DNA of 64,000 nucleotides from Candidatus Fluviicola riflensis. GTDB lineage: Bacteria; Bacteroidota; Bacteroidia; Flavobacteriales_D; Crocinitomicaceae. Shown here in pieces: positions 8,330-24,799 of the stretch. The stretch spans positions 3,336,641-3,400,640 of the forward strand of contig CP022585.1 of the NCBI GenBank assembly GCA_002243285.1. Direction: 5' to 3'. Position 1 is the first letter of the stretch. The number at the start of each line of letters is the position of its first letter. Made by a program: the position numbers and the translations under genes. Below the pieces are notes generated by a model. It was not told the DNA's origin. It ran no database searches and was given only the letters and a program-made list of their open reading frames with translations.

Positions 8330-9256
8330 CTACTTCAGACCGCGAAACATTTGCTCAATTGCTTTCTTTTTTTGTTCCAGATTCGGATGTACATATAGGT
8401 TTAAAGTCGTGCTGATATTGGAATGCCCCAACAGAACGCTGACTGTTTTATAATCACAGTTACTTTCAATGCACCTGGTCGCAAAACTGTGTCTCAATCC
8501 ATGAAACTTAAGCGCCGGTATTTCCAACTTTTCCATCAGGTTTTTATAATAGGCCCTGTACGTTCTGGGTTCGGTTGGTTTGGCGTCATTGGTGAGAACA
8601 AAAAATGAGTTATTGACAATTTTCTTCATCGGTTTCAGCATTTTTAATAGTTCTTTACTCATGGGGATTTCCCGAATAGAGTTTTTGGTTTTAGGCGTAT
8701 CAAGCAGCAATTCAGTTTTCCGGATATCTTCTTCAATCGTATAAATGCGTTGTATCGTTCTTCTGACTTTAATCACACCATTATCCGTATCTATGTCTTC
8801 CCAGGTTAGCGCACAAATTTCACCGATCCGAATACCCGAGGAAAGGCAGATGTAAACCCCCAGGTTTCGAAACGTAAAATGTTCCTGGATATGTAACATC
8901 ACTTTTCGCTGATGCGTACGGCTCAATACCTCAACAGTATGCTTCTCTCGCACTGTCGGGAATTGAAGATCAAACGGCTGGTACTCGATCCATTTATTCT
9001 TCGATCCGAATTTGAGAATCATTTTCAATACAATCAGAATATCTTTTACCGTTTTCTGACTCAACCCCTGTTCCAGTTTCCGGAATACAAACGCCTGTAT
9101 CTCCGATTCTTCCAACTGATGCCTGTCTCTGAATTCAGTTAACAAATGATTTTCAATCAAAAGGGTGTATGCCGAAAAACTTGATTTTTTGACATACTGT
9201 TTTTTATCTGCTTTCCAGAGAACTACGATTTCCGCAATTGTTTTTTGTTTGTTCAT
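8330..9256 (-). CDS. Tyrosine recombinase, predicted hsdS invertase
   Basis: A site-specific recombinase of the phage-integrase/XerD family, 308 aa from the ATG at 9256 (the frame is open further upstream, but the N-terminal SAM-like domain starts here with MNKQKTIAEI). The catalytic residues are all visible: R143 (SSGIRIGE), H252 and R255 (FHGLRHSF), H278 (LLGHSN) and nucleophile Y288 (LNLYVH). It has an N-terminal core-binding domain and a complete catalytic domain, so it should be active. Its start codon is 67 bases from the left 44-bp inverted repeat in hsdS. Such a neighbour is typical of Bacteroidota type I loci that shuffle specificity genes, so I infer that it inverts the 9324-11499 segment. 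Confidence 0.9.
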   Translation of the reverse strand: MNKQKTIAEIVVLWKADKKQYVKKSSFSAYTLLIENHLLTEFRDRHQLEESEIQAFVFRKLEQGLSQKTVKDILIVLKMILKFGSKNKWIEYQPFDLQFPTVREKHTVEVLSRTHQRKVMLHIQEHFTFRNLGVYICLSSGIRIGEICALTWEDIDTDNGVIKVRRTIQRIYTIEEDIRKTELLLDTPKTKNSIREIPMSKELLKMLKPMKKIVNNSFFVLTNDAKPTEPRTYRAYYKNLMEKLEIPALKFHGLRHSFATRCIESNCDYKTVSVLLGHSNISTTLNLYVHPNLEQKKKAIEQMFRGLK

Positions 9257-9323
9257 AACGTTTACTTTTTTAATCGCCCAAAGGAAAGCAATAAAGAATG
9301 TTGTATCGGGCAAGAAAATCCTT

Positions 9324-9367
9324 AAGGTTCCTAATTTGAGATTCCCCGGGTTTGTGGGGGAGTGGGA
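9324..9367 (+). repeat. Left inverted repeat of hsdS inverton (44 bp)
   Basis: 44 bases identical to the reverse complement of 11456-11499. It encodes KVPNLRFPGFVGEW in the reading frame of the silent hsdS allele; identity stops within the following codon. Predicted recombination site for the adjacent tyrosine recombinase. Confidence 0.93.
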
Positions 9368-10394
9368 GGAAAGTTTGATAGGGGAAATTCTCAAAATAGG
9401 AAGTGGAAAAGATTACAAGCATTTGTCGGGAGGGGAAATTCCTGTTTTTGGAACCGGTGGTTATATGGCTTCTGTTAGCGAGCATCTTTTTGAAGGTGAA
9501 ACTGTTTGTATTGGACGGAAGGGCACGATTAATAAACCGTTTTACTATCATGGAAAATTGTGGACTGTAGACACACTGTTTTATACTCATTCATTTGAGA
9601 GAGTTCTGCCTAGATTTGTATCATACTTATTTGAACGGATAAATTGGTTAAAATATAACGAAGCATCAGGTGTTCCCAGCCTTTCCAAAAAGACGATTGA
9701 ACAAATTGAAATTTTCATTCCAAGTATTTCAGAACAAAAGAAACTAACAGATTTTCATCTGCGCTTGGATGAGCGTATTCAGACCCAAAACAAAATAATT
9801 CAATGCTTAGAATCCTTAATGCGAGGTCTCAGGGAAAAGTTATTTAAGCAACAAATACGATTTAATAATGAATTTGGAAACGAGTTTCCAAATTGGGTAG
9901 AGAAGAAAATCGCCGAAATTGCACTAAAAAAGACATCAAATGTTTCTGCCAATTCATTAGATGAAAATGAAGGGGAATACAAAATATACGGAGCTACTGG
10001 AACATTCAAAAATGTAGATTTTTATAGAGAAAAGGAAGAATATATATCGATTGTCAAAGATGGAGCAGGTGTTGGAAGGCTTTTGCTTTGTGAAGCAAAA
10101 TCCTCTGTTTTGGGAACATTGGACATAATCAAAAACAACGAGTTTTCGAACCTGAAGTTTCTTTACTACATCTTAGGATCTGTAGATTTTTTAAAATACA
10201 AGACAGGTAGTACTATTCCACATATTTATTTTAAAGACTATTCTTGCGAAGTGGTTAAATTCCCTTCACGTAACGAACAAACTCTTATCGCCAATTTTCT
10301 AATTTCAATTGACGAAAAAATCAATATAGAAGAGCGTATTTCAAAGAACTATGAGAAGCAGAAAAAGTACTTGCTCCAAAATTTATTTATATGA
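9324..10394 (+). CDS. hsdS: Silent hsdS allele lacking its own start
   Basis: An alternative DNA-specificity subunit gene, opposite in orientation to the rest of the locus. The open frame runs upstream into the antisense of the recombinase gene and no start codon with a leader is evident. The HsdS-like sequence begins exactly at the shared inverted repeat. Two target-recognition domains are present, each followed by a coiled-coil helix (around LDERIQTQNKIIQCLESL and the C-terminal KNYEKQKKYLLQNLFI). After inversion it would be joined in frame to MKKGAQNIP behind hsdM, giving a 365-aa HsdS. It ends tail-to-tail with the expressed allele, the two stop codons overlapping by 8 bases. I class it as a silent cassette, not a pseudogene. 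Confidence 0.88.
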   Translation, partial: KVPNLRFPGFVGEWEESLIGEILKIGSGKDYKHLSGGEIPVFGTGGYMASVSEHLFEGETVCIGRKGTINKPFYYHGKLWTVDTLFYTHSFERVLPRFVSYLFERINWLKYNEASGVPSLSKKTIEQIEIFIPSISEQKKLTDFHLRLDERIQTQNKIIQCLESLMRGLREKLFKQQIRFNNEFGNEFPNWVEKKIAEIALKKTSNVSANSLDENEGEYKIYGATGTFKNVDFYREKEEYISIVKDGAGVGRLLLCEAKSSVLGTLDIIKNNEFSNLKFLYYILGSVDFLKYKTGSTIPHIYFKDYSCEVVKFPSRNEQTLIANFLISIDEKINIEERISKNYEKQKKYLLQNLFI

Positions 10395-11526
10395 ACAGAT
10401 TCTTTAAGAGGTATTGTTTTTGTTTAGTTAGTAGTACAAGAAAAGATTTCTCCATTTCCAGTTTATCCGTCAAAAGATCTAGTATTCTGACTATTTCTAG
10501 CTGGTCTTCATTGTTAGGAAGCCGGATCACAAATTTTTCCAAATCTTTTTTTTGGATATTCGGCAGTCCGGTACCAATACGAAGTGACATAATATGTTGT
10601 TCATTGAATTTCAAGAAATAATAGAGGTATTTATTCAAAATTGTTGAATTCGGTTTAGTTAGTGTATAACAATGTCCACCGCTCCAGAATTTGGAATGAT
10701 TGTATTGCACATAACCACAAGAATTCCCTCCCTCGCTTATGGAAATTGTTCCAGCGTCGGCATTAAAGTTAGAATGATATCCTGATGGAGTGGTTCCACC
10801 ATTCATTACTGCATAAGAGCCAGATTTTGATAGTTCGGAACTGTTTATTTGTTCTCCTTTTTTTACACAACATACCGAATCTAAAGGTGTTTTTGTAAAT
10901 TGTTCTTTGTCATCATTAAAGACTGTTTGGCAAGTTGCTTTGATTGAAGTTTTTAAAGCCTCAATTATTTTGCTATGGGTTGAAATGCGCTCATCAATTA
11001 GTGAAAGGAAAGATGATATCTTTTGCTGCTCTATATATTCTTGTGGGTAATCTATTTTAAGGTTTCTTAAATCAGAGCCATAAATTCGTGTTATAGTGGT
11101 AGAATTTAGTTTTCCCCAATTAATATTAGATAAAACATAGTATAAAAATTCATTTTGAGTTTTCAAAGTTGGATTATCAATCCATACAATATTTGAATCT
11201 TGATAATAAGCATCATTACCATCAAAAACTATACACTTGCCAACAGTTCCGCTACAAGTAATTAAAATTTCTCCGATTTTGGGAAAGTTATATTTGTTTA
11301 TGTATTCATCAAAAAGAGATTTGCTTATAAATGCATCTGGTTCCTTTCCCAATGTGCCAATTTTGTAAAAGGGAATACCTTCAGATTCATTTGTTTGTTC
11401 TGCAAAAATGCGCTTACACATTAGAATGTTACTGTCGTCCCCCAACTGTTTAACTTCCCACTCCCCCACAAACCCGGGGAATCTCAAATTAGGAACCTTT
11501 GGGATGTTTTGTGCTCCTTTTTTCAT
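10387..11526 (-). CDS. hsdS: Type I restriction specificity subunit HsdS (expressed orientation)
   Basis: The specificity subunit that selects the bipartite target for both methylation and restriction, 379 aa. Two target-recognition domains (about 16-170 and 200-355) are separated and ended by conserved helices, as in LIDERISTHSKIIEAL and the terminal KQKQYLLKNLFI. It starts at the ATG at 11526, which overlaps the hsdM stop by 4 bases, so it is translationally coupled to hsdM. Residues 10-23 are encoded by the inverted repeat. The sequence after the repeat differs strongly from the silent allele in the recognition domains, as expected for alternative specificities. Confidence 0.93.
   Translation of the reverse strand: MKKGAQNIPKVPNLRFPGFVGEWEVKQLGDDSNILMCKRIFAEQTNESEGIPFYKIGTLGKEPDAFISKSLFDEYINKYNFPKIGEILITCSGTVGKCIVFDGNDAYYQDSNIVWIDNPTLKTQNEFLYYVLSNINWGKLNSTTITRIYGSDLRNLKIDYPQEYIEQQKISSFLSLIDERISTHSKIIEALKTSIKATCQTVFNDDKEQFTKTPLDSVCCVKKGEQINSSELSKSGSYAVMNGGTTPSGYHSNFNADAGTISISEGGNSCGYVQYNHSKFWSGGHCYTLTKPNSTILNKYLYYFLKFNEQHIMSLRIGTGLPNIQKKDLEKFVIRLPNNEDQLEIVRILDLLTDKLEMEKSFLVLLTKQKQYLLKNLFI
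11456..11499 (-). repeat. Right inverted repeat of hsdS inverton (44 bp)
   Basis: Exact inverted copy of 9324-9367, located near the start of the expressed hsdS and in the same codon phase, so inversion keeps the frame. Confidence 0.93.
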
Positions 11527-13130
11527 AATTCAGCAGTATTTAAAACACCAATCCCTAATTCCTCGAAATAACCGGCGATCTCTCGGTCCAGCTCAGCGCG
11601 TTTGGCTTCGAGTTCGTTTATTTCGCGCATGACGGCCTGTATATCTATAGCCTCTTCTTCTTCAAACGTGTCCACATAACGCGGGATATTGAGATTATAA
11701 TCATTGTCTGCAACTTCCTTTAACGATGCACGATAACTATACTTTTCTATTACTTTACGTTCTTTGTAGGTGTCAATGATTTTGTCAATATGTTCTTCAC
11801 GTAAGACATTCTGTGTTTTTACTTTTTCAAAATCGTTGCTGGCATCAATGAACAAAATATCATCGGGCGTATCGCGGCATTTTTTGAACACCAAAATGCA
11901 GGTAGGAATGCTGGTTCCGTAGAAAATATTCGCCGGTAAGCCGATCACGGCATCGAGGTAGTTTTTGTTTTCAATCAGGAACCTGCGGATGTGCTGTTCT
12001 GCTGCACCTCTGAACAATACGCCGTGAGGTAAAACGACAGCCATGGTTCCATTTTCGGCCAAATGGTAAATCATGTGCTGTACAAACGCAAAATCTGCTT
12101 TACTGGCCGGAGCTAACTTCCCATATTGACTAAAGCGGTCATCGCTTGTAAAAAGCGGGTTCGCGCTCCAATTAGCAGAAAACGGAGGATTGGCCACTAT
12201 TGCCTCAAATGGTAAATCTTCTAAATGCTGCGGATGTTCTAGTGTGTCTTCCTGTTTGATGTCGAAGTCACGGTAATGCACACCGTGCAAAATCATGTTC
12301 ATCCGGGCTAGGTTGTACGTAGTGCGGTTCAGTTCCTGACCGTAAAACATCGTCACATCTTTTACCTCGCGCGCCACACGAAGTAACAATGACCCTGATC
12401 CGCAAGCAGGATCATAAACCGATCTCAATTTGTGTTTGCCAATGGTGACGATCTTTGCCAAGATCATCGACACCTCTTGCGGTGTGTAAAATTCGCCGGC
12501 CTTTTTCCCAGCTCCGCTGGCAAATTGACCGATCAGGTACTCGTAAGCGTCACCCAGTACATCTAATTCCGTCTGTTCGAGGTTAAAATCAATTTTATTT
12601 AGGTGACTTAGGATCTTCGCAATCGTGGCATTTCTTGCTTCTGGTGTTTTCCCGAGCTTTTGACTGTTCAGGTCCATGTCCGAAAAAAGATCTTCAAAAT
12701 CTTCTTCGCTGTCTGTACCCATTGTACTCAATTGGATATTCAACAGGATTTTTTGCAAGTCCTCTAAAATGAAATTGGTTTTCGCTTCGTCGAACTGCCC
12801 CACTTCGTCATTGTCTCCTTGTCCCCGCTTGGCAACCTGAGTAAACAATTCTTCGGGTTTCAGAAAATAGCCGAGTTTTTCGAGTGCTTCTTCCTTAATT
12901 GCATCCAAAAACTCACTTGCCTGAGCTGTTTGAGAAGTAATTTCGTGAAACGTGATTTTATCCTGCTTCAGGATCTCGTTCGCGAAAATCTCCATTTTCT
13001 CGCTCAGGTATTTGTAGAAAATAAATCCCAAAATATAATCGCGAAATTCATCGGCGTTCATCTTCCCCCTCAGGGTATTGGCAATATTCCAAAGCTGTTG
13101 TTCCAGGGCTTTCTTCTGATCTTCTGACAT
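11523..13130 (-). CDS. hsdM: Type I restriction-modification methyltransferase HsdM
   Basis: The N6-adenine methyltransferase subunit; with HsdS it forms the modification enzyme. The protein is 535 aa from the ATG at 13130 (MSEDQKKALEQQLWNIA, the usual HsdM start). Upstream in-frame sequence lacks family similarity. It has an N-terminal helical HsdM_N domain, the SAM-binding motif DPACGSGSLLLR and the catalytic motif NPPF (in EAIVANPPFSANW). The C-terminus is an acidic coiled-coil that contacts HsdS. First gene of the M-S pair on the minus strand. A TAnnTTTG-like box (TACATTTG, 13140-13133) lies immediately before the start codon, but I see no well-placed -33 element. Confidence 0.96.
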   Translation of the reverse strand: MSEDQKKALEQQLWNIANTLRGKMNADEFRDYILGFIFYKYLSEKMEIFANEILKQDKITFHEITSQTAQASEFLDAIKEEALEKLGYFLKPEELFTQVAKRGQGDNDEVGQFDEAKTNFILEDLQKILLNIQLSTMGTDSEEDFEDLFSDMDLNSQKLGKTPEARNATIAKILSHLNKIDFNLEQTELDVLGDAYEYLIGQFASGAGKKAGEFYTPQEVSMILAKIVTIGKHKLRSVYDPACGSGSLLLRVAREVKDVTMFYGQELNRTTYNLARMNMILHGVHYRDFDIKQEDTLEHPQHLEDLPFEAIVANPPFSANWSANPLFTSDDRFSQYGKLAPASKADFAFVQHMIYHLAENGTMAVVLPHGVLFRGAAEQHIRRFLIENKNYLDAVIGLPANIFYGTSIPTCILVFKKCRDTPDDILFIDASNDFEKVKTQNVLREEHIDKIIDTYKERKVIEKYSYRASLKEVADNDYNLNIPRYVDTFEEEEAIDIQAVMREINELEAKRAELDREIAGYFEELGIGVLNTAEL

Positions 13131-13353
13131 CTCAAATGTATTTAATTGAGGATATTTGTTTTTTCGACAAACATTGGCAGAGTGAGACTTATGAAGAAAT
13201 CTGCTTTCCCAATTCCCCATTTGTGTTTCCGAAACTTTGGGTTTTTATTTCCCAAAGTGATTCAGAAACAGATTATTTCTCCCAAAATAAACCATGGAAT
13301 GGAACATCAATTTCTATTGATAAATGTCAGCTAATCAAATTCTATCAAACGCC

Positions 13354-13724: not shown

Positions 13725-14636
13725 TCATGTTACCCCATTAGTTTGGATTGGTAAAACTGAAACATTTCCTCTACTCGCCGGGCAGAGTTCAATTAGTACT
13801 TCCAGTGTTCCTTTGAAGTTTCGCAATTCAGTTGAAATCCAATCTTGTTTTTCCGGATTCATTCCAATTTCGCTTGAAGGAATTATCATATTAATCAGTT
13901 TATTCAATGTTTGAAGAGTTGTAGGTATATCCCAATAAGCTTCAGTAGCACCTCGATATCTATTGATAATCGGCCTTGAAGTTTTTTCAAATACACCGAT
14001 TTCGTCAGAGGGATTATTCCTTTTGTATAATAGGGTTGTAGAATGAATGTCATTGATGTTTCCAGGAAGAACTATTTTAAGGCTGAATGGTATGTCATCT
14101 TCCAATCTTTTCTTTGCCAGTTTTTGTACGAAGTTCTCAAAATACCCTAGCGCTAACGCCGCTGATGCTACTGGACGCAAGTTGTAAGTTTGCTGCGACA
14201 AAATGATTGCTTCCTTAATTTGTTGTACTGCTGCTTCAAGACTACCTTCAATGTCGCTTTCAAAATATGGAACTGTAATCCCATTATAATCTGTTGGGAG
14301 TTTACTATGCTTTTCAACTAAAAGAAACGCTCTGGTAAAACCTAAACTTCCCAGAAACATACCCATTTCAAACATTACATTATCCCGTGGAGTATGAGTT
14401 TCTTTACCCCTACTTTTTGTTATGTCATCTTTTGTAGCTACTAAAATCCCGTAATCATATTTTCGGGAAGCTTTCATTAATGAATCAAGAGCACTGGCAT
14501 TCAGGTCGAAAACAGCCCCTCCATCCCATAAATCACATTCAAGCCAATCATTCAATTCCGATTCAATTTCTTGTTTAAGTTTTAATGCAATGACCTTCCC
14601 CTCAGAGGAAGATCCAATAAATAATTTACGTTTCAT
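13725..14636 (-). CDS. cap12: TIR-STING CBASS effector (Cap12-like)
   Basis: A 303-aa effector. Residues 1 to about 125 are a TIR-like domain of the CAP12/Pycsar type: FIGSSSEG at 7-14 and the signature RDNVMFEMGMFLGSLG at 84-99, where E90 corresponds to the catalytic Glu of NAD-cleaving TIR-STINGs. Residues about 150-303 match a bacterial STING domain: an opening helix ASAALALGYFENFVQKL (like the dimer helix of animal STING), then a conserved RPIINRYRG and WDIPTTLQTL segment, whose Asp236 sits where bacterial STINGs contact cyclic di-GMP. In known systems the cyclic dinucleotide makes STING oligomerise, activating TIR NAD+ hydrolysis and killing the infected cell. It starts one base after the CD-NTase stop (TAA-A-ATG), so the pair is translationally linked. 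A SAVED domain is excluded by size and motifs. Confidence 0.87.
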   Translation of the reverse strand: MKRKLFIGSSSEGKVIALKLKQEIESELNDWLECDLWDGGAVFDLNASALDSLMKASRKYDYGILVATKDDITKSRGKETHTPRDNVMFEMGMFLGSLGFTRAFLLVEKHSKLPTDYNGITVPYFESDIEGSLEAAVQQIKEAIILSQQTYNLRPVASAALALGYFENFVQKLAKKRLEDDIPFSLKIVLPGNINDIHSTTLLYKRNNPSDEIGVFEKTSRPIINRYRGATEAYWDIPTTLQTLNKLINMIIPSSEIGMNPEKQDWISTELRNFKGTLEVLIELCPASRGNVSVLPIQTNGVT

Positions 14637-14637
14637 T

Positions 14638-15660
14638 TTATGAATAGATTAGGTTCCCTTTTTCAAAATAAGTTAAATAGATTTCCTTTTGTACATCCTC
14701 GATTAATTGATCCAAATCAGCTTTAATCAATTTCATATCCGGAACAATGTCTTCTGTTAGCGGGCTTTCTGTTCCGTTGGGACTTTCAACACTTGAACGG
14801 TAATAAGGATTGTTAATCAATTTATCGAGTTGATTACTGAGAGCCTTCGCAATAGTAATATCCTTACCCGGATAATGATAAATTACAGAATTATCAATTG
14901 AGTGAACAATTGTCGTAATTTGAAAACTGGTTAGTCCGATTTTTTCTATTGAATCCGCTTTAAGTGTTTTTAATAGCCGAATTCCCATTCTTGAGCCATC
15001 GTTTGTCGCGTCTCCTTTGAAGTTTACCTCTCGCATGTGGGCAAAGGGATAATCAAGTTCTTTTTGATCTTTCGTAAAATCGAATAAGTATAAACCCTTA
15101 TAATAATCATTTTTAGTTTCATGATATTCCTTAGAATAATACCAAAAACAGAAAACAAGATCAACCTTTCTTTTTAGGGATTTGTTAAATATCGTAATCC
15201 CTTTTTTACCGGATTTATCAACCTCATCATAAATCATTTCCATTATCTTCTCAGACTGTCTTCTGAGCTCTTTAATATCGGAATTTGGATCTGACTCATT
15301 GTATGGATATTGATTTGGAACCCCAGGACCAGGAAAATGGTATCGACCTATTATTGTGAGGAGATCAATATCACTATGAATAATGATATTGGTTGATGTC
15401 ATTACTGATCCCTGCATCCAGTAATCTCTTTGGAAATGCAGGTTCAATTTTCCCTCTAAATGACTTTGGACCTTCTTAGCTGCATCTATAGTTTTATCGT
15501 TGTACTCTTTATCGATTTTTGTCATTGATTCCATCAAGTATTTGATATTTTTTGGAATCTCAGAAAGGTTAAAAGATTTAGTAAGCCTGGATTCATTGAT
15601 TTCATTATCAAACCTTCTATTTCTAAGATTTTGTAATCTCTGTTCGTAATTTAATGCCAT
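14638..15660 (-). CDS. CD-NTase (cGAS/DncV-like nucleotidyltransferase)
   Basis: The CBASS signal-generating enzyme, 340 aa. The polymerase-beta-type active site is intact: GS at 84-85 (MQGSVMTST), the SDIDLL motif with D97 and D99, and the third acidic residue D167 in RKVDLVF. A downstream helical part (SRMGIRLLKTLKADS...LTSFQITTIVH) matches the CD-NTase substrate lobe. STING-linked CD-NTases known from Bacteroidota belong to the CdnE clade and make cyclic di-GMP; I infer that product from the neighbouring STING but cannot show it. It starts at the ATG at 15660, 8 bases after a 45-aa peptide gene, and is followed directly by the effector. No ubiquitin-like cap2/cap3 genes are present, so it is a type I (two-gene) CBASS. 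Confidence 0.9.
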   Translation of the reverse strand: MALNYEQRLQNLRNRRFDNEINESRLTKSFNLSEIPKNIKYLMESMTKIDKEYNDKTIDAAKKVQSHLEGKLNLHFQRDYWMQGSVMTSTNIIIHSDIDLLTIIGRYHFPGPGVPNQYPYNESDPNSDIKELRRQSEKIMEMIYDEVDKSGKKGITIFNKSLKRKVDLVFCFWYYSKEYHETKNDYYKGLYLFDFTKDQKELDYPFAHMREVNFKGDATNDGSRMGIRLLKTLKADSIEKIGLTSFQITTIVHSIDNSVIYHYPGKDITIAKALSNQLDKLINNPYYRSSVESPNGTESPLTEDIVPDMKLIKADLDQLIEDVQKEIYLTYFEKGNLIYS

Positions 15661-15668
15661 AAGCGTGC

Positions 15669-15806
15669 TTAATTAGGAGTTGAACGACGATGAGGTTTAA
15701 CCGGAACGGTCTTCGGCCCGGGTTTCGGTGCATCCGGATTTTTACGTGGAACAGGTGAAGGAGTTGACCTTCTGTGAGGTTTTACCGGAACTGTTTTTTC
15801 TGACAT
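15669..15806 (-). CDS. 45-aa proline/arginine-rich peptide with internal duplication
   Basis: Starting at the ATG at 15806, which has an A-rich leader (ACCAAAGAAA), this encodes 45 residues. The 13-residue unit KTVPVKPHRRSTP occurs twice, at 4-16 and 32-44, separated by a Pro-rich linker (SPVPRKNPDAPKPGP). The DNA repeat is less exact than the peptide repeat, which argues for selection on the protein. It is very basic and likely unstructured. It stops 8 bases before the CD-NTase start, so coupling is likely. The frame is open further upstream (15935), but those starts lack a leader. No family is recognised; an immunity-related or regulatory peptide is a guess. Confidence 0.6.
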   Translation of the reverse strand: MSEKTVPVKPHRRSTPSPVPRKNPDAPKPGPKTVPVKPHRRSTPN

Positions 15807-15954
15807 TTTCTTTGGTTTTAATTGTTTATAATAAATTCCGCTCATCATGAACCCGTCAATTTGACATACAAATATTCCCATCAATCTTACGAGAGACGAA
15901 AGTGTTTTTCCCAACCCGCCATTTCTCTTTCCCAAAGCGGTAATTTGATTGCCC

Positions 15955-17778
15955 TCAATCCACCATCAGCAACTTACACGGCGACGGATCAATGGCCACC
16001 AGCATTGATCGTGACAAGCTCGGTGTAGACACAATTGCCTGGCCCGGAGCTAAATTCGGAAGCCTGCTCCAGAGGTTGTTGTCGACACCACCAATGGAAC
16101 GTTTCAGGCGGCTGACCACATTGGAATCACTGATTTTATGCAGGATGTAACTGTTGATGAGGCCAAGGACTTCGTCGGGTAAATGCTGCGGAAGCTGTGT
16201 TACGAAGATCAAACCGAGCCAGCGTTTTCTTCCGCGACGTGCAATACGGGCTACCTGCTGGAAGAGGTTCGACATTTTCGAAATTTTGTCGCTGGACAGG
16301 AATTCGTGCGCTTCTTCGATGATGATCGAAACAGGCGTAGGCGATTTTTCCTGGCTCATCGCCAGTTCATAAGACACTTCCTGCGCTTCCTGCACACCTC
16401 TGAGCAGATCGGTGATGACAATATTGTTGATGATCGTAGAGTCTGAATCACTGAGATCGATAATGGTTAAATTACCAGGCTGTATGAGTTCAACGTAAGG
16501 AATAGTTTTCGAATCCCGATTGTCAAAGAGATTTGTACGTGACAACTGCCACAATTTCGAAAGCAAAGCATTCCAACTTGATTCACTGCTGGTTTCGACT
16601 GTAATTATCCGGGGTCTTACTTTATTATTCAGATGTTCTTTTAGGATCCCATTGTAAGGAGCCAGTTCCTTTTTACCTACCATGTTACGAATCATGGTCA
16701 CCACATCAATGAATAGTGATAAGGTGAGCTTTGGCCATCCGGTTTCAAATTCATCCAGTTCAATAGCTTCGCGCTCTTCTTCCTGGTTTGGGTAGATCCC
16801 AACGTCTCTAAGAATGAGTTTTGCTGCATCGTATGCTTTAAAAAATCGGCCAACCTGGGCTTCATTTAACCCCAAAATATCGGCGACAGCATAAGGTGAT
16901 AAGGAGGAAAAGCTGAGCGTAAACGGAAGGATGTTGGTCCCTTTTGTAGCACGGGTATCCTTCCCATGAAGGTGCAGAACACGTACGTTTTTTATTCCGG
17001 CCGCTGCAATCCCCCTGTTTGCCAGCAATTTCTGCATGGTCGAATCGGCTGTAGGTTCACCTACATGCGTGTATTCACCTTCGGTATCAATAACGATGGT
17101 TGCAATTCCTTTTTGCTGAAACTGGCTCATCAAACCGGAGATCGTGGTGGATTTCCCTCCACCGGTGGTTCCCAGGATTCCGATGTGCCGTGGTAAAACC
17201 GCTTTGGTATCGGAAGGAATTTTGACTTCGATGTTTTCATGACCGATTGCCATTCCAAGTGTAATGCCCGGCGCGGGATTTACTTTCAGAACGTCTGCGG
17301 TTTCTTCGCGGCTTAACACAAATACCGGGCTGTTGGGTAAAGGCCTGAATCGCGGTGGCATGATTATTCCGTCCAGTAATTCGCCGATAAGCTCAATCTG
17401 CACTTTTCCGTGAAAATTAGGCATGAACAAAGCTCCATTGATGGCCGTGGTGACAATCATCGGAGAATCTCCACGAATGCCATCCGGTTCATGAAACGGC
17501 CCTGCGATTACTATTCCGCGATAGATTCTGCCATCACCTTCGTTTTCGGTTGTACGGCTTCTGATCTCGACAATCGAATGGGCTCCGATTTCCCGGATAT
17601 GGTTTTTCGGGATCAACACGGTAATCAGGTTGTCTTCACTGTTCGGAAGATCAAACATCGTCATTCCGATTGCTCCGACACAATTCGCATCATTTTGCCA
17701 TTCACCACCATTAGAGATGATTTCGTTCGTAATGACCGTGAAAAGGTCCGTTTGCTCGCTGTTATTATTCGTTTCCAT
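15955..17778 (-). CDS. herA: HerA-family DNA translocase ATPase
   Basis: A 607-aa ATPase of the HerA/FtsK superfamily. An N-terminal HAS-barrel-like region (RGIVIAGP, 88-94) precedes the ATPase core: Walker A GTTGGGKST at 203-211, IDTEGEY at 230-236, and the Walker B-like IIIEEAHEFL with its catalytic Glu pair in the last third. HerA rings form hexamers that act on DNA with a partner nuclease or NADase and are recurrent in anti-phage systems. The start ATG at 17778 lies 2 bases after the stop of the preceding gene, so the two are surely a pair. A 148-base gap separates it from the peptide/CD-NTase/STING genes, which may have their own promoter or be read through. Confidence 0.9.
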   Translation of the reverse strand: METNNNSEQTDLFTVITNEIISNGGEWQNDANCVGAIGMTMFDLPNSEDNLITVLIPKNHIREIGAHSIVEIRSRTTENEGDGRIYRGIVIAGPFHEPDGIRGDSPMIVTTAINGALFMPNFHGKVQIELIGELLDGIIMPPRFRPLPNSPVFVLSREETADVLKVNPAPGITLGMAIGHENIEVKIPSDTKAVLPRHIGILGTTGGGKSTTISGLMSQFQQKGIATIVIDTEGEYTHVGEPTADSTMQKLLANRGIAAAGIKNVRVLHLHGKDTRATKGTNILPFTLSFSSLSPYAVADILGLNEAQVGRFFKAYDAAKLILRDVGIYPNQEEEREAIELDEFETGWPKLTLSLFIDVVTMIRNMVGKKELAPYNGILKEHLNNKVRPRIITVETSSESSWNALLSKLWQLSRTNLFDNRDSKTIPYVELIQPGNLTIIDLSDSDSTIINNIVITDLLRGVQEAQEVSYELAMSQEKSPTPVSIIIEEAHEFLSSDKISKMSNLFQQVARIARRGRKRWLGLIFVTQLPQHLPDEVLGLINSYILHKISDSNVVSRLKRSIGGVDNNLWSRLPNLAPGQAIVSTPSLSRSMLVAIDPSPCKLLMVD

Positions 17779-17780
17779 AA

Positions 17781-18953
17781 TTACGCCTTTATTTTTGTCA
17801 ATACATCTGCCCGGATATAAGCCTGGTCAATCGATGTCATGAAATCATTTTTCCCAAACGCATTTTTGCATAAATTTTCTGCCAGGTCCAATAACATCGG
17901 AATTCCGGAATGCATCTGAAGTGCGCTGTCGGCCATGGCAATCAATGCGGCCGTTTGAATGTGATCGACATGACAATAAAACACTTGTGGTGGTGAAAAT
18001 TTGGATACTTTATACACTCCCACAGCGATCTGAGCTCCGGCTATTCGGGCAAATTCTTCGTAGTCATTCTTAATTTCCGAACGCGTATTCCCCGATTGGA
18101 CCATCTGTACCATTTTATCCTCCATCGTGTCCACAATAAGGTATTCAAAAGGATTGAGCGCATTGCCAAATGCCCACAGTTCGGGATGCATGGTACTTTC
18201 CTGAACATAGACAAAGCGTTTATGATTGACAATCATCCGATGCATCAGGTCAATGGATTTGTCTTTCACCTCTTCGCGGCTGGCCCAAAAACCCATCATC
18301 AGTTCATACGGTGCAGGAAATCCGTAACCCAATAACCACTTTGAGTCTGTTTTTTCAAGCAGGATTGCCCGTTCAGCATACGCTTTGATACTGCGCATAG
18401 CTAAACTATTGAGTTTCGTTTTGTCGTCGCTTCGCCGGCGTTCAATTAACTCCTTCGCTTCGTCAAGGATGCTGCTTCGGTCAAATTTCAGGTCACGGCG
18501 AAACAATTGGTGGGAATAACTGCCGTGTTGTCCCTGGTAATTCACCAGGCAGATTCCCATTTGCGTAATAGAAATGGGGAGTGAATCGTACATGACGCTC
18601 ACACTCCCACATGCCGTAACAGCTCCGTTGAAGAGAAAACCTTTGTGGATTTTCTCTATTAATTCAGGAGTGGTGTCGCTGTGCAATCCGGCATACGGAA
18701 CCAAAGCGTTCTCCTTAATTTTTGGAAACACCTCTTTTCGAATTACCTGATTCGATTCAAGCTCATTACGTTTTGCCGTAAAGAGTTCCTTTTCAATCTG
18801 GGAATACAGTTTTGAAAGATCCCTGTCGATCTTCCAGGTTTCGATATTGATTGCATCAATGTAATCTTCACCGTACAATTTTTTGAAATCCTCAAAGGAA
18901 ATCCGGCCATATTGTTTATAGGAATCTTCCGTTCCCGGGGTGTTATTTTCCAT
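17781..18953 (-). CDS. HerA partner, possibly a divergent NurA-like protein
   Basis: A 390-aa protein tightly coupled to HerA (2-base gap), the position of NurA nuclease in HerA-NurA pairs. Features resembling NurA are the order of a central beta-rich region (FNGAVTACGSVSVMYDSLPI...GICLVNYQGQ), a following HR-x-D segment (LFRRDLKFDR), a helical stretch with RSIKAYAERAILL, and a late block with FYCHVDHIQTAAL. However, the usual DG motifs that carry the catalytic Asp residues are not obvious: the first site reads TACGS and the second GYGFPAP. It may be a strongly diverged NurA, a non-nuclease adaptor or a different family. The assignment rests mainly on context. ATG at 18953. Confidence 0.5.
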   Translation of the reverse strand: MENNTPGTEDSYKQYGRISFEDFKKLYGEDYIDAINIETWKIDRDLSKLYSQIEKELFTAKRNELESNQVIRKEVFPKIKENALVPYAGLHSDTTPELIEKIHKGFLFNGAVTACGSVSVMYDSLPISITQMGICLVNYQGQHGSYSHQLFRRDLKFDRSSILDEAKELIERRRSDDKTKLNSLAMRSIKAYAERAILLEKTDSKWLLGYGFPAPYELMMGFWASREEVKDKSIDLMHRMIVNHKRFVYVQESTMHPELWAFGNALNPFEYLIVDTMEDKMVQMVQSGNTRSEIKNDYEEFARIAGAQIAVGVYKVSKFSPPQVFYCHVDHIQTAALIAMADSALQMHSGIPMLLDLAENLCKNAFGKNDFMTSIDQAYIRADVLTKIKA

Positions 18954-19004
18954 AACTGCGTAGTGTTTCTTATTTTATTCCGGAAAAAATGCCGGAGTTC
19001 GACA

Positions 19005-19760
19005 CTAAAGTCCAAGTTTGTCTAAAAATGATGGACCGTTGGTGATCGAATAGGCCAGTTCTACTGCATACTGATGCGCGACTTTGGCCGGAATCTGATA
19101 GTTTTTCATTAATATTTCCTCGCATTTTCGGGTAAATTGATTGTAATTGAGCCGCCTTGCCGTTGCAATGGTGCCTTTGATCACAACGGATCGCGGGGCC
19201 AGTAATTCCAATGCCAGGTAATCTGCTTCGTTTTCCGAAGTGTAGTTCATCCAATTCAGGAAAGAACCGTCACCGCTTTTTTCAATCAAATGTGTGTAAG
19301 GCTGGATACTGATTCCTTTAATCAATGCTTTTACCTGCTGAAAACGCGTCGCTTCCGCTTTTCCATTCAGTACATCCTCGATTTCAGTTCCTATTGCCAA
19401 CATGGCTTGTTCCCGCGGCATTTGATAATCCAGCAAAAAATGACTCACCTCATGCGCAATCGTAAATCGCTGCTGAATAGTGCCGTCATCGGCATTTACG
19501 AAGATGAAACCAAATCCTTCACGGATCATAATAACGCCATGTAATTCCCGGTCATTTACTTCAATCTCAATATCATTTACTCCCAGATTTTTTAACCAAC
19601 ATTCTATCACTTTCCAACTCAGTTGTTGAAGATGTACAACGTTGACCGGAAGCACATCATCAACAGCACTTGAAATATCGAGACCGTTTCGGTGTACCGG
19701 ATCTGCTTTTGACCAAAACTCGCGCGCGATTCGCTCAATTTGCGATTTGCTGAATCTCAT
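19005..19760 (-). CDS. ImmA/IrrE-family metallopeptidase (CapP-like)
   Basis: A 251-aa zinc peptidase of the ImmA/IrrE (COG2856) family. The metal site is HEVSH (H103, E104, H107), and the downstream ligand is in ENEADYLALELLAP (E178). In phage and CBASS regulation such peptidases (ImmA; CapP) cleave a partner HTH repressor after DNA damage and release transcription. Its start overlaps the stop of the upstream 120-aa HTH-like gene by ATGA, the same pairing as ImmR-ImmA and CapH-CapP, so I infer a protease-regulated switch. It is separated from the putative NurA-like gene by 51 bases. Confidence 0.85.
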   Translation of the reverse strand: MRFSKSQIERIAREFWSKADPVHRNGLDISSAVDDVLPVNVVHLQQLSWKVIECWLKNLGVNDIEIEVNDRELHGVIMIREGFGFIFVNADDGTIQQRFTIAHEVSHFLLDYQMPREQAMLAIGTEIEDVLNGKAEATRFQQVKALIKGISIQPYTHLIEKSGDGSFLNWMNYTSENEADYLALELLAPRSVVIKGTIATARRLNYNQFTRKCEEILMKNYQIPAKVAHQYAVELAYSITNGPSFLDKLGL

Positions 19761-20119
19761 TTCTTATCGTCCTTACCTTCTTCTTTGTCTCTTGCGGCCA
19801 TAAGAATGGTTCCCGTACCGGTGGTGAATTTCAGTACTGTATTTACGTGTTTGATCATCTTTGTCAATTTGCTCGTATCAATATTGACATATTCACTAAT
19901 GACTTTTATACGTGACATAAAATCCGGTTCGCTAATGTCAGGAGCCTTGCACAGTGCCAGTTCGTAATAACTGCTAAGCGAGCAATCAAGAACGTTGAGT
20001 AAGTCTGATTCAGTGATTTTTTCGAATTCACAGTACTTTTTTAGAGTATAAGCCATGAACTCATGGTTATCCTCCATGCGTGTAGTCGCATGTTTCAAAA
20101 AATTCAATTTTGTATTCAT
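19757..20119 (-). CDS. Small HTH-like protein, candidate repressor partner of the ImmA-type peptidase
   Basis: A 120-aa, mostly helical protein. Residues about 28-90 have the layout of a helix-turn-helix domain seen in small regulators: KYCEFEKITESDLLNVL, then CSLSSYYELALCKAP, then a DFMSRIKVISEYVNID helix. The C-terminus is a charged tail (ARDKEEGKDDKK). It overlaps both neighbours by ATGA (sigma-like gene upstream, peptidase downstream), indicating one translational unit. Position and size suggest a CapH/ImmR-like regulator, but it is not a canonical Xre-type HTH and the DNA-binding role is inferred. Confidence 0.55.
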   Translation of the reverse strand: MNTKLNFLKHATTRMEDNHEFMAYTLKKYCEFEKITESDLLNVLDCSLSSYYELALCKAPDISEPDFMSRIKVISEYVNIDTSKLTKMIKHVNTVLKFTTGTGTILMAARDKEEGKDDKK

Positions 20120-20754
20120 TGTATTAAGCTTTTAATCCCGTTTTTTGCATCGTTCCTTTCCAACACTTTCTTAATGCGGTCTTTGTGTTTTTTGACTTCA
20201 TCACGTTGCTCAGACTTCGTTAAACCTTCGATTTCCAGCACTTCGCTAAAAGGTTCTGTTTCCCGTTCGCTCGCGAGAACCATATAAGCAAGAATAACAT
20301 CTCTCTCATTTGGGAATAAACTTTCAAGTAAGTTCTGGATAGCTGTCATTGTCTCTTCGATTTGAATAGTGTCGTCTGTGGAACCACGCGGTTTTATAAT
20401 AGTATTCCAGAAATTTTCCTGGAGTTCGACATCTTCGGGTAAATCTTTTCGATTGAGGTGTTTTTGTTCTTTGAGAAGAATATTCTGGAGGTCCCTGTCC
20501 GCAGCTACAAGCAGAAAAGAAAACAGTTTATACTTCTCGGGGTTAAACGTACCGGGGTTGTTGTAGTATCCCAAAAGAGCTTCATTAACAGCTTCAAGCA
20601 AGAGCATTTCGTCTCTCCTTGCAGCAGTTTGGTACTTGTATTTCAGAATTTGAACAATCTTAGGCCCATACAACTTATCGAGTTTTGACAGGGCAATGTC
20701 CTTTTTATCCTGCACCGCCATATGCAGTTCCAGTTCTATAAGAGAAGCTTTCAT
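20116..20754 (-). CDS. Sigma-70-like protein
   Basis: A 212-aa protein resembling ECF-type sigma factors. Residues about 18-95 match a sigma region 2 pattern: an initial KLYGPKIVQILKYKY helix, then DEMLLLEAVNEALLGYYNNP-like spacing, then FNPEKYKLFSFLLVAADRDL. The C-terminal part (LFPNERDVILAYMVLASERE...SEQRDEVKKHKDRIKKVLERN) resembles a region 4 helix-turn-helix. Similarity is moderate, so binding to core polymerase is an inference. It sits at the head of the operon, overlapping a 47-aa ORF upstream and the HTH-like gene downstream by ATGA. It could direct transcription of the defence operon or respond to phage takeover of transcription. Confidence 0.6.
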   Translation of the reverse strand: MKASLIELELHMAVQDKKDIALSKLDKLYGPKIVQILKYKYQTAARRDEMLLLEAVNEALLGYYNNPGTFNPEKYKLFSFLLVAADRDLQNILLKEQKHLNRKDLPEDVELQENFWNTIIKPRGSTDDTIQIEETMTAIQNLLESLFPNERDVILAYMVLASERETEPFSEVLEIEGLTKSEQRDEVKKHKDRIKKVLERNDAKNGIKSLIQ

Positions 20755-24592: not shown

Positions 24593-24799
24593 ATGCCAGA
24601 CTTTTACGTAAATACGGATGCTCAGTCGACCGGCGAGCACGAAGTTCACAAGAACGGTTGCAGTCATGGGCCTACCGCCGCCAAACAAAAATCACTTGGG
24701 TGGCATTCATCCTGTAATTCGGCAGTAACAGAGGCCAAAAAGCACTATAAGAAAGTGGATGGTTGTTATTACTGTGCAAATGCTTGTCATGATAGGTGA
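24593..24799 (+). CDS. Small Cys/His-rich conserved protein
   Basis: A 68-aa protein belonging to a widespread uncharacterised family with the pattern VNxxAQxxGxHEVHKxGC...A..EAKK.Y..VDGCYYC...CH. Here H16, H19, C23, C41, C58, C61 and C65 could coordinate zinc. It starts at the ATG at 24593. No operon partner: a small lipoprotein with a similar Cys/His spacing is convergent at 24852. Function unknown. Confidence 0.75.
   Translation: MPDFYVNTDAQSTGEHEVHKNGCSHGPTAAKQKSLGWHSSCNSAVTEAKKHYKKVDGCYYCANACHDR

Follow-up and report, generated by a model that had tools for sequence, protein, structure and literature searches.

The peptide gene and its surroundings

The window, the whole stretch of 64,000 nucleotides of Candidatus Fluviicola riflensis DNA analysed here, carries a gene for a 45-amino-acid protein that lies directly upstream of a CD-NTase gene and downstream of a five-gene cassette ending in a HerA-like ATPase. 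The features of the locus are the following:

13725-14636, minus strand: TIR-STING effector (PF10137, PF20300), a neighbour and no partner of the peptide
14638-15660, minus strand: CD-NTase (PADLOC Cyclase PDLC00807, E = 8e-149), likewise a neighbour and no partner
15669-15806, minus strand: 45-amino-acid basic proline-rich protein (ORF, homologues, purifying selection)
15675-15713, minus strand: second KTVPVKPHRRSTP unit of the peptide, residues 32-44
15759-15797, minus strand: first KTVPVKPHRRSTP unit of the peptide, residues 4-16
15955-17778, minus strand: HerA-like ATPase (PF01935, E = 1.3e-20; synteny), the upstream neighbour also in a genome of the same genus
17781-18953, minus strand: 390-amino-acid gene of the HerA cassette, without a Pfam match and, from its position only, possibly NurA-like
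19005-19760, minus strand: ImmA/IrrE-type M78 peptidase, CapP-like (PF06114; PADLOC capP, E = 5.5e-10)
19757-20119, minus strand: 120-amino-acid protein of the HerA cassette (synteny)
20116-20754, minus strand: 212-amino-acid protein of the HerA cassette (synteny)

The peptide gene is 138 bp long, from an ATG at 15806 to a TAA ending at 15669, and its product is MSEKTVPVKPHRRSTPSPVPRKNPDAPKPGPKTVPVKPHRRSTPN. Longer in-frame starts exist (ATG at 15881, TTG at 15935), but the starts of the homologues correspond to 15806. The initial annotation had described a duplicated 13-residue unit with diverged DNA and a stop codon 8 bases ahead of the CD-NTase start (15669 versus 15660), and both descriptions are correct. 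Residues 4-16 and 32-44 are identical, while the two 39-nucleotide stretches that encode them differ at 8 sites, all silent (79% identical). The longest exact internal repeat measures 13 residues, a length that 3000 shuffles of the residues never approached, with 6 as their maximum. This exact identity is confined to the genus; the units of the relatives read KPH[RK][RK]S[TK]P and KPH[KR]R[TNK]PP, so that the core held in common is K[TS]VPV[KRQ]PH[RK]R.

Proline accounts for 12 of the 45 residues (27%), lysine or arginine for 11 and acidic residues for 2. The sequence P-V-[KRQ]-P-H-[RK], a basic motif of extended polyproline type, is present in both units. AlphaFold predicts no secondary structure (pTM 0.17). 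Searches of Pfam, PADLOC, PHROGs, NCBIfam and the PDB gave no useful match to the peptide, the best PDB match being the histone H3 tail (E = 1.4, not significant). Plasmid and isolate-phage collections returned no homologue; low-complexity masking lowers the sensitivity of searches with the window peptide as query, and some of the queries against these collections were unaffected by it. A text search of the literature for the motif strings found nothing.

The spacer of 148 bp between HerA and the peptide gene has no match to the Bacteroidota promoter consensus, so both co-transcription with HerA and an unrecognised promoter are possible. Rfam detected no RNA element at the locus in the window.

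Conservation within the genus

The metagenome-assembled genome UBA5871 (G517) belongs to the same genus as the window, and its peptide locus (L017) has the five-gene cassette and the peptide gene in the same order, with a HerA-to-peptide spacing of 153 bp. The two peptides are 96% identical and differ only by S2T and N45D. At the nucleotide level there are 14 synonymous and 2 non-synonymous differences (pN/pS 0.05), while the flanking DNA, both the upstream spacer and the downstream sequence, has diverged. The peptide is also the best-kept gene of the block: identity between the two genomes is 86% for HerA, 78% for the 390-amino-acid gene and 62-71% for the three remaining cassette genes, with the M78 gene at 62%. 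Distant homologues of the peptide are still 64-86% identical in protein at near saturation of synonymous sites. The comparison of synonymous with non-synonymous change among homologues, proposed as a check in the initial annotation, therefore gives a ratio within the genus that is not near neutral. Judged from these substitution patterns, the 45-amino-acid ORF is a real gene under strong purifying selection.

Downstream of the peptide, G517 encodes a 68-amino-acid protein and a type IIG restriction enzyme. A small Cys/His-rich protein with the pattern YVN..AQ..G.HEVH..GC comes after the peptide in this genome, and proteins of this one kind are encoded at L017 8166-8372 and at 24593-24799 of the window.

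The order of the cassette genes (15955-20754 in the window) is kept in G517 and in a distant family (G371, locus L016), where the cassette lies beside a DNA methylase-like gene. One other genome among 395 of the phylum has the five-gene cassette, which is possibly an undescribed defence system. The HerA genes of G517 (L017 6020-7847) and G371 (L016 5806-7647) are split by a frameshift, through assembly error or decay.

Homologues in other Bacteroidia

Besides the window copy, we identified 10 intact homologues with 64-96% identity, nine of them in Bacteroidia and one on a jumbo-phage-like contig. Two strict patterns, run against 85k species, detected the loci L018 (86% identical) and L020 (84%) as well as G517. 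Profile searches of 395 genomes of the class added G657, G029, G769 and a copy in G718 with a TAG in frame, which we classed as degenerate. The peptide is thus found in 5 of these 395 genomes, counting the window's own and the degenerate copy. It occurs in 3 of 169 genomes of one family, where a profile search added G942 and G997, and in 2 of 35 genomes of another, where G1093 was added. Weak matches in three further genomes were discarded, those in G804 and G658 for in-frame stop codons and that in G952 as antisense to, or inside, a larger unrelated gene. All 11 aligned intact members, the window included, keep KPGPK[TP][VIM]PV[KR]PH[RK]R.

Most bacterial copies lie 12-153 bp behind defence genes that are unrelated to one another. 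The peptide gene follows a type IIG restriction enzyme (Type_ISP_C, E = 1e-76) by 17 bp at L018, on a contig of merely 4.4 kb, and at L020 it follows the same kind of enzyme together with two small ORFs. In G657 (L027) it lies 18 bp behind a Thoeris-like TIR gene (ThsB/PDC-S66) and ahead of an XRE-M78/DUF4411 pair, in G769 (L030) 12 bp behind a DUF6119 gene that itself comes after an Eco57I-type methylase, and in G1093 (L042) 53 bp behind an Eco57I-type enzyme. Three genomes (G029, G942 and G997; L028, L040 and L041) have the peptide gene inside an operon with response regulator, DUF4236 and TerB-like genes, apparently of a Flavobacteriaceae type. With recurring arrangements counted once, a relation to defence is seen in four of the five bacterial contexts, a strong hint that is distinct from a measured enrichment. 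Neither the phage loci described below nor the three loci with the Flavobacteriaceae operon are clearly defence contexts, and the defence neighbours may reflect nothing more than shared residence in variable islands.

A probable two-helix membrane protein of 167-171 amino acids is encoded near the peptide gene in two of these genomes (L030 4995-5625; L042 6527-7200, minus strand), followed by another small proline-rich basic protein (VPGPR.PPPPP.K).

A one-unit form in phages

The jumbo-phage-like viral contig with the full-length copy of the peptide is 194 kb long and has many tRNA genes. Searches with the pattern GPKTVPV[KR]PH and then with a looser pattern, and a further scan that gave three more, identified proteins of 34-43 amino acids with a single unit (KPGPKTVxVxxHKRSxP) on viral contigs of about eleven distinct kinds. 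The consensus of this form is MAxKxKCRPVRxGKKPGPKTVxVxxHKRSxPxxxxC, and the portion in common with the window peptide is its second KTVPVKPHRRSTP unit with the preceding KPGP. The window peptide, with fewer than 50 residues and a K-P-G-P-K-x-V-x-V-x-x-H-x-R unit near its C-terminus, fits the KPGPK family as defined here.

A six-frame search of the window and nine control loci with a profile built from eight phage peptides alone detects the window peptide at E = 8.9e-12 and nothing else. Aligned with the peptide profile by hhalign, the phage profile gives a probability of 96.8% over residues 20-45. Likeness at the pattern positions is selected for by a motif search, and the independent support therefore comes from the flanks, a lysine ahead of the motif and RS[TK]P behind it, both present in eight of the eight phage peptides of the profile. 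On all the sequence comparisons made here, the peptide is a gene under purifying selection, belongs to a family that recurs in different contexts and is related to the phage peptides.

Several of the phage one-unit genes have ribosome sites of the form AAGGAGGT, and several lie on the strand opposite to the genes around them. In two lambda-like phages (L056 and L062) the gene sits between genes that we take to be the terminase and gpW; the copy of L062 has a terminator-like hairpin behind it. Morons are small phage accessory genes that lie among late genes and carry their own signals. The phage one-unit genes are tiny, and several of them, with a strong ribosome site and the opposite orientation, resemble morons and may by analogy be moron-like. 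The window copy differs, as it has two units and is located on a bacterial chromosome outside any phage block. At L052, a phage tRNA with the anticodon TTA (1428-1511; tRNA-Stop according to ARAGORN) follows the phage peptide gene at a distance of about 45 bases and could be a suppressor tRNA for TAA.

Relation to the neighbouring CBASS

The CD-NTase is followed by an effector that combines TIR with prokaryotic STING, and the neighbour of the peptide is therefore a TIR-STING CBASS; the pair at 13725-15660 of the window constitutes a bacterial STING system. Both genes are of the kind described for CBASS with CD-NTase and TIR-STING (e.g. PMC9402430), but the peptide does not travel with such systems. 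We fetched seven relatives of the CD-NTase, 28-58% identical over the matched part, and none has a member of the peptide family, by ORF reading or by profile search in six frames. At L009, a 42-amino-acid basic ORF (858-986; SKAAKSVAGSALSQR) lies upstream of a CD-NTase; it is unrelated to the peptide and has no Pfam match. Conversely, the peptide of G517 has neither CD-NTase nor TIR-STING beside it, despite the same order of HerA cassette and peptide, and no homologue of the window CD-NTase is found at any of the 11 other peptide loci.

The peptide matches no known Cap or regulator protein in PADLOC, Pfam or NCBIfam, in agreement with the initial annotation, which knew of no CBASS component like it. 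The same annotation suggested a role in CBASS, such as regulating the CD-NTase, and a search for conserved homologues upstream of related systems; the seven relatives and G517 speak against such a role, and we rejected the peptide as a CBASS component. The CapP-like M78 peptidase in the HerA cassette recalls the CapH/CapP regulators of CBASS, but the peptide itself is not CapH-like and has no detected DNA-binding domain. GC3 of the peptide (0.26) is nearer to that of the CD-NTase (0.31) and TIR-STING (0.28) than to that of HerA (0.50), which counts weakly, over 46 codons, against independence from CBASS.

Possible function of the peptide

The occurrence of copies beside differing defence genes and of a half-size phage cousin points to an undescribed family of small proteins. 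Our preferred reading, which we hold with modest confidence, is that the peptide is a self-standing small accessory protein of this basic proline-rich family that acts independently and is no CBASS component. The family would consist of tiny, basic, probably unfolded proline-rich proteins built on K[TS]VPV[KR]PH[RK]R(S)xP, with one unit in phages and two in Bacteroidota, whose gene would have settled time and again behind defence genes of unrelated kinds, and in a small number of other operons as well. The likeliest reading of the sequence is a disordered bivalent binder: the peptide would act inside the cell and bind a conserved partner through its two repeated linear motifs, candidates being DNA or RNA, the ribosome, or a protein whose groove accepts basic polyproline peptides. 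The existence of phage homologues, together with the defence neighbours, makes a part in phage-host conflict more plausible, and the peptide would serve it on its own account and not by regulating the CD-NTase. A variant that we regard as possible but doubtful is a new class of tiny bivalent linear-motif proteins common to phages and bacterial defence islands. Phages would use the one-unit form against a conserved target of the cell or of its defences, and the two-unit form of Bacteroidota, kept beside many different defence systems, would be a decoy or a common helper.

A different reading makes the peptide the last gene of the HerA cassette, working with the ATPase. In its favour, two species of the genus share the arrangement, with the peptide gene 148-153 bp behind HerA, but the peptide occurs in two of the three HerA cassettes found and is missing from the third, which belongs to another family of the class (G371, L016); no HerA cassette gene accompanies nine other intact homologues within the fetched stretches, and the HerA-peptide spacer is poorly conserved, which leaves this reading unlikely. 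Slightly less credible still is a small toxin or an antimicrobial peptide like the ribosome-blocking proline-rich peptides. The proline and basic residues and the lack of a predicted fold would fit, but no antitoxin partner gene recurs beside the peptide, a signal sequence for secretion is not apparent, there is no sequence match to such peptides and its motif is, to our knowledge, unlike theirs; moreover, it is encoded in chromosomal and phage gene arrays.

The remaining explanations appear very improbable. That the peptide regulates the CD-NTase or TIR-STING as a CBASS component, or is a target of phage interference, is suggested by its place 8 bp ahead of the CD-NTase on the same strand, yet the seven relatives lack it, and neither in the same-genus genome nor at any other peptide locus examined does a CD-NTase accompany it. 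Marginally less probable again is a leader peptide that controls the next gene through its own translation, as its position immediately ahead of a defence gene might indicate: the downstream genes vary at nearly every locus, the peptide gene is often the one that lies downstream, and its amino acids are under selection along the whole length. A chance ORF without function has only small size in its favour and is practically incompatible with the pN/pS within the genus and the identity to distant homologues at near-saturated synonymous sites.

Annotation and searches for defence systems routinely overlook proteins of fewer than 50 residues, and this family combines strong amino-acid conservation with several different defence neighbours and phage relatives. 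If it acts alone, the peptide would either serve as a compact factor in defence or counter-defence or bind some widely conserved target, and with a gene of only 138 bp both are easy to test.

Elsewhere in the window, a Type I restriction-modification locus (8330-13220) looks like a phase-variable inverting specificity locus: besides an integrase-like gene it has two HsdS-like genes in opposite orientation, with KVPNLRFPGFVGEWE-type ends in common.
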